Assembly (NCBI GenBank): GCA_028704435.1
Contig: JAQWFL010000014.1
Coordinates: 1 to 64,000, forward strand
Length of the DNA stretch: 64,000 nucleotides
Reading direction: 5' to 3'
Origin: Anaerostipes sp.
GTDB lineage: Bacteria; Bacillota; Clostridia; Lachnospirales; Lachnospiraceae
The notes under the pieces: model-generated
The model's input: only the letters and a program-made list of their open reading frames with translations
The model's database searches: none
Told to the model about the DNA's origin: nothing
Translations under genes and position numbers: made by a program
In this document: piece by piece, positions 17,039-24,853 of the stretch
Position numbering within the stretch: position 1 is the first letter of the stretch
Layout of the letters: the number at the start of each line of letters is the position of its first letter

Positions 17039-17092
17039 GAAGCTATAAATGAAACAAATATAACTTTCAAATGAAATTAAAGGAGAATGTGG

Positions 17093-19504
17093 ATGAAGAA
17101 TATAGAGCATTTTGGTGATTTAACCCCAAGAATGAATCAATTTAGAGAGAATGTGTTGGATAAAAAACCATATATTTGTGCCGAGAGAGCCTTACTTGCA
17201 ACAGAAAGTTACAAAGAGAATAAGAATCAGCCAGCAGTGATGAAACGAGCATTGATGCTAAAGAATATACTAGAAAAGATGACAATTTACATTGAAGATG
17301 AAACTTTAATTGTGGGTAATCAGGCAGCATCAAATAAAGATGCACCTATTTTTCCAGAATATACACTAGAGTTTGTGATGAATGAACTGGATTTATTTGA
17401 GAAGCGTGATGGGGATGTGTTCTATATTACGGAAGAGACAAAGGATGCTCTTCGTTCCATTGCACCATTTTGGGAAAACAACAATCTAAGAGCCAAGGGT
17501 GGAGCTTTACTTCCAGAGGAAGTGGATGTTTTTATGGAAACAGGATTCTTTGGAATGGAAGGGAAATTAAACTCAGGAGATGCACATCTTGCAGTAGATT
17601 ATAAGACTATGCTAGATAAAGGACTTGTGGCTTATGAAGAGAGAACACGTAGACTAAAGGAAGAATTAGATTTATGTGTTCCAGAAAATTTAGATAAATA
17701 TTGCTTTTATAATGCAGTGTTAATTGTAATTGAAGCAGTTAAGAATTTTGCACACCGTTACAGTGTATTGGCAAAAGAGAAGGCACAAAAAGTAGAAGGA
17801 AAGAGAAAAAAAGAACTTCTTGAAATTAGCCGAATCTGTGATAAAGTTCCTTATGAACCAGCCACAACTTTTCAGGAAGCTATCCAATCTACCTGGTTTA
17901 TTCAGTTGATTTTGCAAATTGAGTCCAATGGACATTCTTTGTCTTACGGACGATTTGATCAATATATTTATCCATTTTATATGAATGATAAGAAGAATGG
18001 AACATTGACAGAAGATGCAGCCGTTGAACTTTTAACGAACCTTTGGATTAAGACCTTAACGGTAAATAAAGTGCGAAGTCAGGCACATACATTAAGTAGT
18101 GCAGGAAGTCCTCTTTATCAGAATGTAACCATTGGTGGACAAACAAGAGATAAAAAAGATGCAGTAAATGAATTATCATTCTTAGTATTAAAATCAGTAG
18201 CACAGACTAGACTTCCACAACCAAACTTAACAGTTCGGTATCATAAAGGGTTATCAAAAGAATTTATGGATGAGGCTATTGAAGTTATGAAACTTGGAAC
18301 AGGAATGCCGGCATTTAATTCAGATGAAGTTATTATTCCATCGTTTATGGAAAAGGGAGTCTTAGAAGAAGATGCTTATGATTATTCGGCCATTGGATGT
18401 GTAGAAACAGCAGTTCCAGGAAAATGGGGATATCGCTGCACTGGTATGAGTTATGTGAACTTCCCAAGAATTCTCTTAATTGCTATGAACAATGGAATTG
18501 ATCCAACTTCAGGGAAACGATTTGTTAAGGAGTGTGGATATTTTAAGGATATGGAAACATATGAAGACTTAAAGGCAGCCATTGATCAGGTGATGAGAGA
18601 GCTTACAAGAATGAGTGTCATTGTTGAAAATGCAATTGATCTTGCAATTGAAAGAGAATGCCCAGATATCTTGTGTTCTGCTTTAACACAAGATTGTATA
18701 GGACGTGGAAAGACGTTAAAACAAGGGGGAGCAATCTATGACTTTATCTCAGGATTGCAAGTTGGAATTGCCAATATGGCAGACAGTTTGGCAGCAATTA
18801 AAAAGCTTGTCTATGATGAAAAGAAGATTACAAGAAATCAGTTAATTGAAGCATTAGAAGATAACTTTACAAAAAAAGAGAATAAAGAAATTCAAAACAT
18901 GTTAATCAATGATGTACCAAAATACGGAAATGACAATGATTATGTAGACAATCTAGTAGTTGAAGTATATGATACCTATCTTGATGAAATTAAGAAATAT
19001 CCTAATACTCGTTATGGAAGAGGGCCAATTGGAGGAATTCGTTATGGTGGAACCTCATCTATCTCAGCCAATGTGGGGCAGGGGATGGCAACGAAAGCAA
19101 CTCCAGATGGGCGAAAGGCAGGAACTCCACTTGCAGAAGGATGTTCACCAGCTCATGCTATGGATAAGAATGGACCAACTGCAGTATTTAAGTCAGTATC
19201 TAAACTTCCAACTCACGAGATTACAGGCGGAGTTTTATTAAACCAGAAAGTAACACCACAGATGCTTTCTACAGAAGAAAACAAACAAAAATTACAAATG
19301 ATGATTCGTACATTCTTTAACCGCTTAGATGGATATCATGTACAATACAATGTAGTATCAAGAGATACATTGATTGATGCACAAGAACATCCAGAAAAAC
19401 ATAAAGATTTGATTGTTCGTGTGGCAGGATATTCAGCATTCTTTCATGTGTTATCCAAAGCGACACAAGATGATATTATTGAGAGAACAGAACAAACATT
19501 ATAA
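17093..19504 (+). CDS. YbiW/PflF-like glycyl radical enzyme
   Basis: The 803-residue enzyme belongs to the pyruvate formate-lyase superfamily but is not a PFL. The active-site loop AIGCVETAVPGKWGYRCTGM has the single Cys-x-Glu of dehydratases and eliminases, and the C-terminal RVAGYSAFF carries the glycyl radical Gly. Blocks such as LQIESNGHSLSYGRFDQYIY, AGSPLYQNVTIGGQ and SGLQVGIANMADSLAA match my memory of E. coli YbiW (PflF) closely. As far as I recall, YbiW/PflD-type enzymes have been linked to dehydration of 1,5-anhydroglucitol-6-phosphate; treat that substrate as a hypothesis. No FSA-type aldolase is present here. I chose ATG 17093 because AGGAG is then 7 bases upstream; it is only 1 base from ATG 17087. 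Confidence 0.85.
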   Translation: MKNIEHFGDLTPRMNQFRENVLDKKPYICAERALLATESYKENKNQPAVMKRALMLKNILEKMTIYIEDETLIVGNQAASNKDAPIFPEYTLEFVMNELDLFEKRDGDVFYITEETKDALRSIAPFWENNNLRAKGGALLPEEVDVFMETGFFGMEGKLNSGDAHLAVDYKTMLDKGLVAYEERTRRLKEELDLCVPENLDKYCFYNAVLIVIEAVKNFAHRYSVLAKEKAQKVEGKRKKELLEISRICDKVPYEPATTFQEAIQSTWFIQLILQIESNGHSLSYGRFDQYIYPFYMNDKKNGTLTEDAAVELLTNLWIKTLTVNKVRSQAHTLSSAGSPLYQNVTIGGQTRDKKDAVNELSFLVLKSVAQTRLPQPNLTVRYHKGLSKEFMDEAIEVMKLGTGMPAFNSDEVIIPSFMEKGVLEEDAYDYSAIGCVETAVPGKWGYRCTGMSYVNFPRILLIAMNNGIDPTSGKRFVKECGYFKDMETYEDLKAAIDQVMRELTRMSVIVENAIDLAIERECPDILCSALTQDCIGRGKTLKQGGAIYDFISGLQVGIANMADSLAAIKKLVYDEKKITRNQLIEALEDNFTKKENKEIQNMLINDVPKYGNDNDYVDNLVVEVYDTYLDEIKKYPNTRYGRGPIGGIRYGGTSSISANVGQGMATKATPDGRKAGTPLAEGCSPAHAMDKNGPTAVFKSVSKLPTHEITGGVLLNQKVTPQMLSTEENKQKLQMMIRTFFNRLDGYHVQYNVVSRDTLIDAQEHPEKHKDLIVRVAGYSAFFHVLSKATQDDIIERTEQTL

Positions 19505-19635: not shown

Positions 19636-19669
19636 CAAAATGATGAATCAGATGTACAAGGAGAATACA

Positions 19670-20575
19670 ATGACTACAGTAGAGAAGATTACAAAATTAA
19701 AAGAGAAAAAGAATGCAATTATTTTAGCCCATTATTATGTAGAGGATGAGATACAACAAATTGCTGACTATGTTGGAGATTCTTATTATTTGAGTGAAGT
19801 TGCAACTAAAACAGATGCAGACTGGATTATATTTGCAGGAGTTTCATTTATGGGAGAGAGTGCAAAGATACTAAATCCGGACAAGCGTGTCTTTATGCCA
19901 GATGCAAAAGCAGACTGTGCCATGGCACATATGGTTACTCCGGAAAAAATAGAGGAGATAAGAAGAAAAACAAAAGATTTAGCGGTGGTTTGTTATATAA
20001 ATTCAACGGCTGAGATTAAGACTTATTCCGATGTATGTGTTACTTCTGCCAACGCGGTAAAGATTGTAAAAAGTCTTCCAGAGAAGAATGTTTTCTTTGT
20101 GCCAGATGGAAATCTTGGAAGTTATGTCAAAGAACAGGTTCCAGAAAAGAATATTATTTTAAATGATGGATATTGTCCTGTACATAAAGTAATGACAAAG
20201 GAAATGGTTCTAAAAGCAAAAGAGAAGTATCCAAATGCTAAATTTGCAGTGCATCCAGAATGTATAAAAGAAGTAGTAGAAGAAGCAGACTACGTAGGAA
20301 GTACATCTGGGATTATTGAATATGCAGCCAAAGCAGATGAGAAGGAATTTATCATTGGGACAGAGACAGGTGTTATGTATGAATTAAAGAAGCAAAATCC
20401 AGATAAGAAATTCTATACACTTATGGAGCATCAAGTGTGTGAAGATATGAAACTTGTATCTCTTGATAAGATTTTGGACGTTTTAGAACATGAAGTAAAT
20501 GAAGTTTTTGTCAGTGATGATGTGAGAGAGCGTGCAATGCTTCCTCTAAAGAGAATGATAGAGTTAGCAAAGTAA
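19670..20575 (+). CDS. nadA: Quinolinate synthase
   Basis: The 301-residue iron-sulfur enzyme condenses iminoaspartate with dihydroxyacetone phosphate to quinolinate in NAD synthesis. Diagnostic segments are LAHYYVEDEIQQIADYVGDS, FAGVSFMGESAKILNPDK, the cluster cysteines in ADCAMAHM, YCPVHKVM and EHQVCEDM, and HPECIKEV. The true start is ATG 19670 with AAGGAG upstream; the ORF track begins 60 nt too early. It is the first gene of nadA-nadB-niaR. Confidence 0.93.
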   Translation: MTTVEKITKLKEKKNAIILAHYYVEDEIQQIADYVGDSYYLSEVATKTDADWIIFAGVSFMGESAKILNPDKRVFMPDAKADCAMAHMVTPEKIEEIRRKTKDLAVVCYINSTAEIKTYSDVCVTSANAVKIVKSLPEKNVFFVPDGNLGSYVKEQVPEKNIILNDGYCPVHKVMTKEMVLKAKEKYPNAKFAVHPECIKEVVEEADYVGSTSGIIEYAAKADEKEFIIGTETGVMYELKKQNPDKKFYTLMEHQVCEDMKLVSLDKILDVLEHEVNEVFVSDDVRERAMLPLKRMIELAK

Positions 20576-20585
20576 GGAGGAATAA

Positions 20586-21773
20586 ATGAAAACAGACGTA
20601 TTAGTTATTGGCAGTGGATGTTCAGGTCTTTATTGTGCATTAAAGCTTCCATCAGATGTAAAAATTACCATTATTACTAAATCAGACTTTGCCAGCAGTG
20701 ATTCATTTTTAGCCCAGGGGGGAATGTGTATGCAAAGGGATGAGAATGATTTTGAGTCCTATTTTGAAGATACAATGAAGGCGGGACATTATGAGAATGA
20801 TAAAAAGTCTGTAGAACTTATGATCCGTACTTCCCCTGAAATTGTGAAAGATTTAGTTTCTTTTGGGGTAGAGTTTCAAAGAGATGAACAGGGGAATCTT
20901 GCATTTACAAGAGAAGGAGCTCATTCAAGGAATCGAATTGTATTTCATAAAGACATTACGGGAAAAGAGATTACAAGCCATCTGTTAGAAGAGGCAAAGA
21001 AGAGAGAGAATATTACGCTTCTTGAGTTTACAAAGATGACAGATTTGATAATAAAAGAAGAAATGTGTATTGGAGCAAAGATAGAGTTTCAGGGAAAGAA
21101 GGATTTGATTTTTGCAAAAGAAACAGTGCTTGCAACGGGTGGAATTGGTGGAAACTATGAGCATTCTACTAATTTCTGCCATCTCACTGGGGATGGAATT
21201 ACCATGGCGAAGCGTTATGGGGTAGAACTCAAAGATATGGATTATGTTCAGATTCATCCAACAACTCTTTATACGAAAGAGAAGAAAGAGAGAAGCTTCT
21301 TGATTTCTGAATCTGTTCGTGGAGAGGGGGCAAAACTATACAATAAGAATATGGAACGTTTTGTAGATGAGTTGTTACCAAGAGATGTTGTGACAGCCGC
21401 TATTTTAAAGCAGATGAAAGTGGATGAAAGAGATTATGTGTGGGAAGACTTAAGAGATATTCCAAAAGAAGAATTGGAAACACATTTCCCAAATATTGTA
21501 GAGCACTGTAGAAAAATGGGGTATAATGTATTTAAAGAATGTATTCCTGTGGTTCCAGCCCAGCATTATTTTATGGGTGGAATCAAAGTAAATCACGAGA
21601 GTAAAACTTCCATGGAACATTTGTATGCAGTAGGAGAAACCGCATGTAACGGTGTTCACGGAAAGAATCGATTGGCAAGTAATTCACTTCTTGAAAGTAT
21701 GGTATTTGCAGGAAGAGCTGCAGATGATATTCAAAAAAGATTAAAGGGGAAAGTTTGCAAGGTATCGGCATAG
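20586..21773 (+). CDS. nadB: L-aspartate oxidase, short form
   Basis: The 395-residue flavoprotein oxidises L-aspartate to iminoaspartate for NadA. It has the FAD-binding GSGCSGLYCALKL, the LAQGGMC loop, HSRNRIVFHKDITGKE, IHPTTLYTKE and SESVRGEGAKLYN, and ends shortly after the second FAD segment (NSLLESMVFAGRAA). The C-terminal helical domain of the roughly 540-residue E. coli enzyme is absent, a known variation in clostridia. An AAGGAGG site lies just after nadA. Confidence 0.9.
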   Translation: MKTDVLVIGSGCSGLYCALKLPSDVKITIITKSDFASSDSFLAQGGMCMQRDENDFESYFEDTMKAGHYENDKKSVELMIRTSPEIVKDLVSFGVEFQRDEQGNLAFTREGAHSRNRIVFHKDITGKEITSHLLEEAKKRENITLLEFTKMTDLIIKEEMCIGAKIEFQGKKDLIFAKETVLATGGIGGNYEHSTNFCHLTGDGITMAKRYGVELKDMDYVQIHPTTLYTKEKKERSFLISESVRGEGAKLYNKNMERFVDELLPRDVVTAAILKQMKVDERDYVWEDLRDIPKEELETHFPNIVEHCRKMGYNVFKECIPVVPAQHYFMGGIKVNHESKTSMEHLYAVGETACNGVHGKNRLASNSLLESMVFAGRAADDIQKRLKGKVCKVSA

Positions 21774-21802
21774 ATTTGGCAAGTTTGGAAAGGAAGAACG
21801 AA

Positions 21803-22360
21803 ATGAGCGGAGAAGTTAGAAGAACGAAGATTATACAGATGCTTTCACAGGCGCAAAAACCTATCTCTGGTTTAGCTCTTTCAAAAGAATTACAAGTTAG
21901 CAGGCAGGTAATTGTACAAGATATTGCACTGCTTCGTGCCAATGGAAGTGAGATTATCTCGACCAATCGAGGCTATCTTATGAGTATAAGAGCAATGCAT
22001 GAAAGAGTGTTCAAGGTTCATCATGAAGATGATGAAGTGGGACAAGAATTAAACGCGATTGTTGATATGGGTGGACAGATACAAGATGTTTTGATTTTTC
22101 ATAAAATATATGGAACCATGCGTGCACATTTGAATATTAAGTCCAGAATGGATGTTGAGAAATATTTAAAAGAGATTGACAATGGAAAGTCTAATCTATT
22201 AAAGAATGTAACATCAGGTTATCATTATCATACAGTGACTGCAGAGAATGAAGAACTTTTAGATATGATACAAGAGAAGTTAGAAGAATTAGGATTTCTT
22301 GCAAAGTTACAAGACTATGAACCAGTAGACTTCTGGGAAAATCAAAAAAGTAGTTCTTAA
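21803..22360 (+). CDS. niaR: NiaR-type niacin-responsive repressor
   Basis: The 185-residue protein has an N-terminal HTH (RRTKIIQMLSQAQKPISGLA, then VSRQVIVQDIALLR) and a C-terminal 3H domain with conserved His (KVHHEDD, FHKIYG, YHYHTV). NiaR represses NAD synthesis and niacin uptake genes when nicotinic acid is bound. ATG 21803 with AAGGAAG is preferred to the track start at 21755, which lies inside nadB. It presumably acts on the repeats near the nadA promoter. A nadC gene, usual between nadB and niaR, is absent. Confidence 0.88.
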   Translation: MSGEVRRTKIIQMLSQAQKPISGLALSKELQVSRQVIVQDIALLRANGSEIISTNRGYLMSIRAMHERVFKVHHEDDEVGQELNAIVDMGGQIQDVLIFHKIYGTMRAHLNIKSRMDVEKYLKEIDNGKSNLLKNVTSGYHYHTVTAENEELLDMIQEKLEELGFLAKLQDYEPVDFWENQKSSS

Positions 22361-22368
22361 TTAGGTAT

Positions 22369-22410
22369 AAAGTGGATTGTTTGAAGATATATTTTCGAAC
22401 AGTCCACTTT
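22369..22410 (+). terminator. Terminator after niaR
   Basis: AAAGTGGA-TGTT-GAA pairs with TTC-AACA-TCCACTTT. The poly-U tract is weak (TTTGACATTA), and the stem end overlaps the next promoter. Confidence 0.6.
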
Positions 22411-22437
22411 GACATTATAAGGGACAAAAAGTATAAT
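22409..22437 (+). promoter_or_regulatory. Perfect consensus sigma-A promoter
   Basis: TTGACA (22409-22414) and TATAAT (22432-22437) are separated by 17 bp. It drives the amber-split kinase gene 41 bases downstream. Confidence 0.85.
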
Positions 22438-22477: not shown

Positions 22478-23476
22478 ATGGGGTATAGATATGCCAGGGA
22501 GGCATTAGAAAGCTTGGTTCATTGTTATTACAAGGAAAGGGACATTGGTGGGGTATTAAACTGTGTGACAGATGATATCTTCTGGATTGGAACAGAGTCA
22601 TTTGACTGTGCAAATGGAACGGATGAACTGCGTCAATTATTAGAGAAAGATTTGGAAAAGTTTCCAAATCCTTTTCAAATCAAGGTAGAAGAACCTATTG
22701 TCCAGAAGCTCAATGATGCCACAGCTATGTTTACCGTAAGCGGACATCAAATTGAAATCCCTAATATGACACTTGGACTTAATGTTCGGGCAACCATCTG
22801 CATTAGAAATACAGAAACAGGATGGCTTGTCTGCAATGTGCATGTGTCAGTTCCCAATACAGAATTAGAAAAATATATTTTAGAGAAGAAGTTAGATGAG
22901 ACGAGAAAAAAAGAACAGGTACTAATGGCATCTATTCCAGGTGGTGTTGCTATTTATCGTGCCAAGAAAAATGGCAGATTTGCAACAGATTATATTTCAG
23001 AGGGACTTGCCAGAATGTGCGGATATACGGTGGAAGAGTTCATGGAATATTTAAAAGAGGATGCACTGGTTAATGTGGTATCAGAAGATATTCCTATGGT
23101 GGAAAAATCCGTAAGAAAAGCATTGGAAGAGAATGTTCCAATCAGTATTAGTTATCGAATTTATTCTAAGGATAAGAAAAAAATATTAATTCAGTCAGAT
23201 GCTAATATCATGTTTATGGAACAATTAGGGGAAGATGATGTGGCTATTCTTTATGCGGTGCATACTTTAGTATCCGATGAAAAGAAGAAGACTGCAAAAG
23301 AGCAAAAAAGGTATCGAGATATTTTTAATATGTTAGGAACGGCATGTTGGGAATGGAGCGTAGAGGATGGATATTATAATTCAGATAAGTATAATGACTA
23401 TGCCATTAGTGGGGAAGATCAGAATGCAATATGGGAAGATAGTAAGTATTTGAAATACATACATCCAGAAGATTAG
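22478..23476 (+). CDS. N-terminal part of amber-split hybrid histidine kinase (SnoaL-PAS)
   Basis: The 332-residue reading frame starts at ATG 22478 with GGGGGG upstream. It has a SnoaL/NTF2-like domain (about 1-130: YKERDIGGVLNCVTDDIFWI), a PAS domain (about 140-260: ASIPGGVAIYRAKKNGRFAT) and the first half of a second PAS (from about 285). It stops at a TAG inside the second PAS, in YIHPED-stop-QIMKEF. The same frame continues directly into the kinase at 23483. Together they would form one 791-residue cytoplasmic hybrid kinase. A consensus promoter lies upstream. The stop is either a recent nonsense mutation or a read-through site. Confidence 0.8.
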   Translation: MGYRYAREALESLVHCYYKERDIGGVLNCVTDDIFWIGTESFDCANGTDELRQLLEKDLEKFPNPFQIKVEEPIVQKLNDATAMFTVSGHQIEIPNMTLGLNVRATICIRNTETGWLVCNVHVSVPNTELEKYILEKKLDETRKKEQVLMASIPGGVAIYRAKKNGRFATDYISEGLARMCGYTVEEFMEYLKEDALVNVVSEDIPMVEKSVRKALEENVPISISYRIYSKDKKKILIQSDANIMFMEQLGEDDVAILYAVHTLVSDEKKKTAKEQKRYRDIFNMLGTACWEWSVEDGYYNSDKYNDYAISGEDQNAIWEDSKYLKYIHPED

Positions 23477-23482
23477 CAGATT

Positions 23483-24853
23483 ATGAAAGAATTTATGTCA
23501 AAAGAGAACCATGATAACAGCAAGAAATCTGTTATGATACGTGCAAAGATGAAGGATGGCAGCTTCCGGTGGACAAAGATAATTTATTTTGTGGAGTATG
23601 ATTCCTATGAACACATAGTCCGTATTATTTGTGTGATGAAAGATGTAGATCAAGAATGGATTGAACAAAAGAAAAAGCTTGAGTTTGCATTGAAAACAGC
23701 CAAGGAAGCCAATCAAGCGAAAACAGATTTTCTATCTAGAGTCAGTCATGATATGAGAACGCCATTAAATGGAATTTTAGGATTGACCACACTGCTCGAG
23801 GAAAATGTAGTCAATGAAAAAGCATTACTTGATTTACAACAATTAGAGATGTCTGGAAAGTATCTTCTTAATCTAATCAATGATACTTTAGATGTAAGTA
23901 AGATTGAGAATGGGAAATTAGAACTTCATCCAGTAATTTGTGATGGAAAAGCTGTATTTAACAATGTAATTGCACTGTTAAAACCTAATCTATTAAAAAG
24001 AAGAATACAGCTCAATATGAATGCGGAGAATCTTCCCTTTACCATTTTGTATATTGATGTTGGGCGAGTGGAGCAGATTGTTATGAATATATTAGGAAAT
24101 GCAATCAAATTCACACCAAAGGGTGGAACGATAGATCTTCATATAAGAAATTTATCAGTAAAAGATGGAGTGATTCTAGATGAAATTGTAATTAAGGATA
24201 ATGGAATTGGAATGAGTCAGGAATTTTTACCACATTTATTTGAGCCTTTTTCACAGGAAAATCATAGCCGAACGACTTCCTACCAGGGGACTGGTTTAGG
24301 CATGGCAATTACCAAACAGTTAATTACATTAATGGGTGGAGATGTTAAAGTAGAAAGTACAGAGAATGTAGGTACAATCTTTACCGTTACACTGCCAATG
24401 GCAGTAGCTACCGAAGAACAGGTGAATGAGTGGAAGATGTCAAAACCAGTGAAAGCAAGTGATTATAGGCTGGAGGGAAAGAGGGTACTTCTTTGTGAGG
24501 ACCATCCACTAAATGCTACCATTGCCACCAGATTGTTAAATAAAAAAGGGATGATTGTAGAGCATGCGGAAAATGGAAAAGACGGAGTGGATATGTTCCA
24601 AAAGTCTTCCATGGATTATTATGATTTGATTTTAATGGATATTCGAATGCCAGTGATGGATGGGATGGAAGCAACAAGGGAAATACGAAAGCTTCTAAGA
24701 AAAGATGCAAAAGAAATTCCAATTGTTGCTATGACGGCCAATGCATTTGAAGAAGATATGAAACAGGCAAAAGATGTGGGAATGAATGCATATTTAAGCA
24801 AACCAATTGAGACAAGTCAGTTTTATGTAACATTACAAAATATTTTGCTATAA
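23483..24853 (+). CDS. C-terminal part of amber-split hybrid histidine kinase (PAS-HisKA-ATPase-REC)
   Basis: The 456-residue frame is in phase with 22478-23476. It holds the second half of a PAS domain (MKDGSFRWTKIIYFVEYD), HisKA with His about 88 in RVSHDMRTPLNG, the ATPase domain (NILGNAIKFTPKGG, DNGIGM, GTGLGMAI) and a receiver (VLLCEDHPLNATI, about 333-455, acceptor Asp in ILMDIRMP). ATG 23483 has no recognisable ribosome site, so independent translation is unlikely; it needs read-through or is silent. The kinase and receiver motifs remain intact, which argues that any mutation is recent. Confidence 0.8.
   Translation: MKEFMSKENHDNSKKSVMIRAKMKDGSFRWTKIIYFVEYDSYEHIVRIICVMKDVDQEWIEQKKKLEFALKTAKEANQAKTDFLSRVSHDMRTPLNGILGLTTLLEENVVNEKALLDLQQLEMSGKYLLNLINDTLDVSKIENGKLELHPVICDGKAVFNNVIALLKPNLLKRRIQLNMNAENLPFTILYIDVGRVEQIVMNILGNAIKFTPKGGTIDLHIRNLSVKDGVILDEIVIKDNGIGMSQEFLPHLFEPFSQENHSRTTSYQGTGLGMAITKQLITLMGGDVKVESTENVGTIFTVTLPMAVATEEQVNEWKMSKPVKASDYRLEGKRVLLCEDHPLNATIATRLLNKKGMIVEHAENGKDGVDMFQKSSMDYYDLILMDIRMPVMDGMEATREIRKLLRKDAKEIPIVAMTANAFEEDMKQAKDVGMNAYLSKPIETSQFYVTLQNILL

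Follow-up and report, generated by a model that had tools for sequence, protein, structure and literature searches.

The window analysed here, 64,000 nucleotides of a contig from an Anaerostipes genome, carries a hybrid histidine kinase gene interrupted by one in-frame amber codon, and we consider a recent C-to-T nonsense mutation, turning codon 333 from CAG into TAG, in a kinase gene that is accessory and probably inactive to be the best explanation, with a probability of about 0.78. A single substitution in this genome's lineage would have created the stop so recently that the half behind it shows no decay yet, and translation would most likely end inside the second PAS domain, yielding a 332-residue sensor fragment without the kinase, so that kinase function is probably lost. 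The gene differs at this codon by one base from the orthologue of a sister species and is otherwise intact, and hallmarks of read-through are absent.

An open kinase frame with a single amber codon

The gene and its promoter comprise the following features:

22409..22437, plus strand: sigma-A type promoter, TTGACA-17-TATAAT, with 12/12 consensus positions matched; hexamers and spacing identical in the sister species G006
22478..23476, plus strand: first half of the gene (ORF of 332 aa), with a SnoaL_3 domain, a first PAS domain and the start of a second, ending in TAG
23474..23476, plus strand: in-frame amber codon 333, where homologues have a sense codon
23477..24853, plus strand: second half in the same frame, with the remainder of the second PAS domain, HisKA, HATPase_c and receiver domains

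The sequence-only reading had described two ORFs of one frame, split by a single amber codon within a PAS domain and with motifs intact on either side, and our analysis bears out each of these points. ORF 23483-24853 (456 aa) shares the frame of ORF 22478-23476, the codons CAG ATT being all that separates it from the TAG. When the TAG, its single interruption, is read through, the kinase frame 22478-24853 comprises 791 codons and closes with its normal terminator, a TAA at 24851-24853. In this read-through frame, Pfam places SnoaL_3 at residues 16-127, PAS_3 at 172-248, HisKA at 414-479, HATPase_c at 527-642 and Response_reg at 670-782. The second PAS domain spans the stop, where it is matched as PAS_9 (329-390) with a score under the cut-off, and reading through the TAG lifts the PAS_3 score from 38 to 62 bits. 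Inspection shows the H, N, G1 and G2 boxes, as well as the Asp and Lys of the receiver. With HisKA, HATPase_c and receiver domains and their motifs in one read-through frame, the gene is, by its predicted domain content, a soluble hybrid sensor kinase with the order SnoaL_3-PAS-PAS-HisKA-HATPase-REC. All three of these signalling domains lie 3' of the TAG, and the first product alone is devoid of them.

The promoter had been called perfect, and rightly so. Because it is the same in the sister species, it is the ordinary promoter of the full-length kinase gene, and its perfection says nothing about read-through. Between it and the upstream gene lies an A+T-rich inverted repeat (window 22371-22407), largely conserved in G006, which may be the terminator of that upstream gene. 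The region directly upstream of the kinase (window 19661-22360) encodes nadA, a nadB-like gene and a 3H-domain HTH regulator (NiaR-like), and a glycyl radical enzyme lies 5' of these genes at 17087-19504.

Ribosome sites bear on another account of the locus, in which it would make two proteins, a SnoaL-PAS fragment and a kinase-receiver fragment started separately at ATG 23483 or later. Termination beside a start can permit reinitiation. Codon 336 is ATG in the window and ATA in G006, so this genome differs from its sister not only in the stop but also in the start that closely follows it. Against this, the true start at 22478 has a strong Shine-Dalgarno sequence (-10.0 kcal/mol), whereas the energy at ATG 23483 is -1.5 kcal/mol, almost no site at all, as had been remarked from the sequence, and the best value at any downstream start up to codon 405 is -3.0 kcal/mol. 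Efficient reinitiation is therefore unlikely. The split also falls inside a PAS domain rather than at a domain border, and we regard separate production of two proteins as highly improbable.

Codon 333 in the sister species and in wider relatives

The orthologue in the sister species G006 (C54:61050-63425) is full length at 791 codons, 94% identical in protein sequence and free of internal stops, and the gene order around it is the same. This closest relative carries the sense codon CAG at position 333. The neighbour of the TAG on the codon 332 side differs as well (GAC in G006, GAT in the window), and the sequence flanking codon 333 differs between the two species at a normal rate. Since the gene has accumulated no second lesion, the age of the putative pseudogene appears low.

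The same comparison bears on whether the stop is real. The window's genome (G000) is a draft of 2.88 Mb in 74 contigs (completeness 89%, contamination 4%), possibly a metagenome-type assembly, and an intact gene could be concealed by a wrong base in the consensus or assembly, or by a variant that only a minority of a mixed population carries. The otherwise perfect state of the gene and the difference at the neighbouring base (GAC to GAT) would fit such an artefact. We nonetheless consider it unlikely, given that C-to-T substitutions are common real differences, that the flanks diverge from G006 at a normal rate and that both genomes have a low rate of other interruptions.

The genome collections that we compared hold one genome per species, and within the genus a clear orthologue was found in only one of the ten other genomes, that of G006. 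Querying 397 genomes of the family with the first 410 residues of the kinase retrieved two more full-length relatives, which belong to other genera and have overall identities of 47% and 51%, together with one paralogue within the window's own genome; a scan of wider genome contigs found only distant relatives, several of its best matches being Lachnospiraceae, the family in which the organism would accordingly be placed. The sequence-only reading had allowed that relatives might share the stop and show decay downstream of it, but no homologue examined carries a stop at this site. The residue at 333 is Q in G006, V in G070, F in G200 and L in the paralogue, which excludes a conserved programmed stop. 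The position is therefore variable, with neither a stop nor Gln conserved, and most inserted residues would probably be tolerated there. The one close sister and the distant stop-free homologues together suggest that CAG is probably the ancestral codon. The rarity of the gene (one of ten other genomes of the genus and two others in the family sample) suggests that it is dispensable, and the window's genome has over a dozen further kinase-type matches.

Divergence from G006 is similar on the two sides of the stop, with dN 0.030 and dS 0.137 on the 5' side (ratio 0.22) and dN 0.027 and dS 0.158 on the 3' side (ratio 0.17). Among the neighbours, dN/dS is 0.03-0.06 for the nadB-like gene, the 3H-domain regulator and the glycyl radical enzyme, and 0.16 for an adjacent CN hydrolase. 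The kinase thus evolves fairly fast throughout, yet not faster after the stop, and the change is accordingly either recent or tolerated. Even ratios fit a mutation that is young relative to the species split, but the lack of relaxed constraint in the downstream half is also what read-through would predict and counts to that extent against a recent loss. The test has little power, because most of the divergence probably predates the stop and there is one close sister to compare.

Amber codons in the genome and the case for read-through

We compared about 1.02 Mb of G000 with 0.73 Mb of G006, taken as stretches. TAG terminates 213 of the 757 long ORFs (28%) in the 1.02 Mb of G000, and release factor RF1 is intact (542 bits). 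A search for amber suppressor tRNA genes, which had been proposed as a check, found no CUA anticodon among the 56 tRNA genes detected in this 89%-complete assembly, and the best matches to the PylS model reach 25-27 bits, where the cut-off is 178. A PylS or CUA tRNA gene could have been missed in an assembly of this completeness; even so, the PylS matches fall far enough under the cut-off for us to set pyrrolysine aside.

Among 263 orthologues shared with G006 (108,302 codons), G000 has two clear mid-gene nonsense codons, the kinase TAG and one TAA, so that with the kinase excluded 1 of 262 other orthologues is affected; three others align only in pieces. An ORF of 1090 codons has another TAA at 10% of its length, and all other stops in G000 sit at the margins of genes, where the position of the start is uncertain. 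Viewed from the side of G006, two genes appear fragmented, among them a hybrid kinase, and four stops fall between 10% and 95% of the gene; the clearest of these is a TAG 94% of the way through a gene of 3128 codons. Interruptions thus occur at an ordinary low background rate, and amber does not stand out within it. We reject reassignment or suppression of amber across the genome, given the share of TAG stops, the presence of RF1, the lack of a CUA anticodon among the 56 tRNAs and mid-gene stops that are one TAG and one TAA.

Several of these interruptions can be described individually. In prfB, which encodes RF2 (L166, G000:C31:64218-65249), a CAG of G006 is a TAG near the end of the gene; the product is merely five C-terminal residues shorter, and we discounted this in-frame TAG as support for suppression. 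A REC-GGDEF-EAL gene (L257, G000:C58:8000-12500, minus strand) has an in-frame TAA in its GGDEF domain, after GRFSGDEF, where G006 has TAT; its frame stays open past the TAA, and its C-terminal part contains the nearest paralogue in G000 of the kinase's PAS region. A hybrid kinase (L186:5615-8425, G000:C7) is intact in G000 and fragmented in the alignment to G006, and kinase interruptions may therefore occur in both species. That another signalling gene is likewise stopped midway fits a turnover of redundant sensors in a genome rich in hybrid kinases.

Read-through at this one codon is a separate matter. A near-cognate tRNA, tRNA-Gln(CUG) for instance, could read the amber often enough to be useful, giving some full-length kinase, possibly under regulation. 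The downstream frame is intact and constrained, residue 333 would probably accept most amino acids, and a tRNA-Gln with anticodon CTG is present in G000. In E. coli, premature stops undergo basal read-through in the order TGA > TAG > TAA, at rates that depend strongly on context (PMC11126739), so the kinase may be made at full length in trace amounts. The stop, however, is conserved in no relative, RF1 is intact, and neither a CUA tRNA nor a PylS above the cut-off was found. The CAG behind the stop, which had been put forward as a leaky context, is indeed there, but it is equally present in the stop-free G006 gene and so was not acquired with the stop. The leaky motif of the TMV type is CAR-YYA; as the next codon is ATT, the motif is incomplete and CAG-ATT only a partial match. 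RNA folding behind the stop does not exceed that of shuffled sequences (z = 0.38), and we rejected a read-through stem-loop on this ground. We judge read-through at a useful level to be quite unlikely, and very unlikely the more specific proposal that the kinase is switched by amber read-through via a near-cognate Gln tRNA, at a level tracking termination accuracy or growth state. The sequence-only reading had left the choice between a very recent loss of function and regulated read-through: the former is favoured by the CAG of G006, the otherwise intact gene and the even divergence, while the latter gained no positive support.

Comparison with known systems

With programmed or recoded UAG systems (pyrrolysine, TMV-type read-through, and amber suppressor or amber-recoding organisms), the kinase gene shares a UAG in an otherwise open frame, followed by CAG. 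It differs from them in that the stop is unconserved in orthologues, UAG is a regular terminator, the CAR-YYA motif is incomplete, no 3' structure was detected, and no CUA tRNA or PylS over the cut-off was found in the 89%-complete genome. A literature search returned nothing specific to an amber-split kinase. The G006 orthologue matches the window gene in gene order, promoter, length and high protein identity, and differs from it in having CAG for TAG at codon 333 and ATA for ATG at codon 336.

The case serves mainly as a caution: a gene divided cleanly at one codon, its promoter and motifs undamaged, is the typical picture of a young nonsense mutation, and recoding should not be read into it unless the stop is conserved. 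With recent bacterial pseudogenes of this kind, nonsense-interrupted genes for two-component sensors, we see no evident difference: the kinase gene shares with them an internal stop from a single substitution, an intact sister orthologue, the status of an accessory signalling gene and the company of other interrupted signalling genes, here in both G000 and G006.
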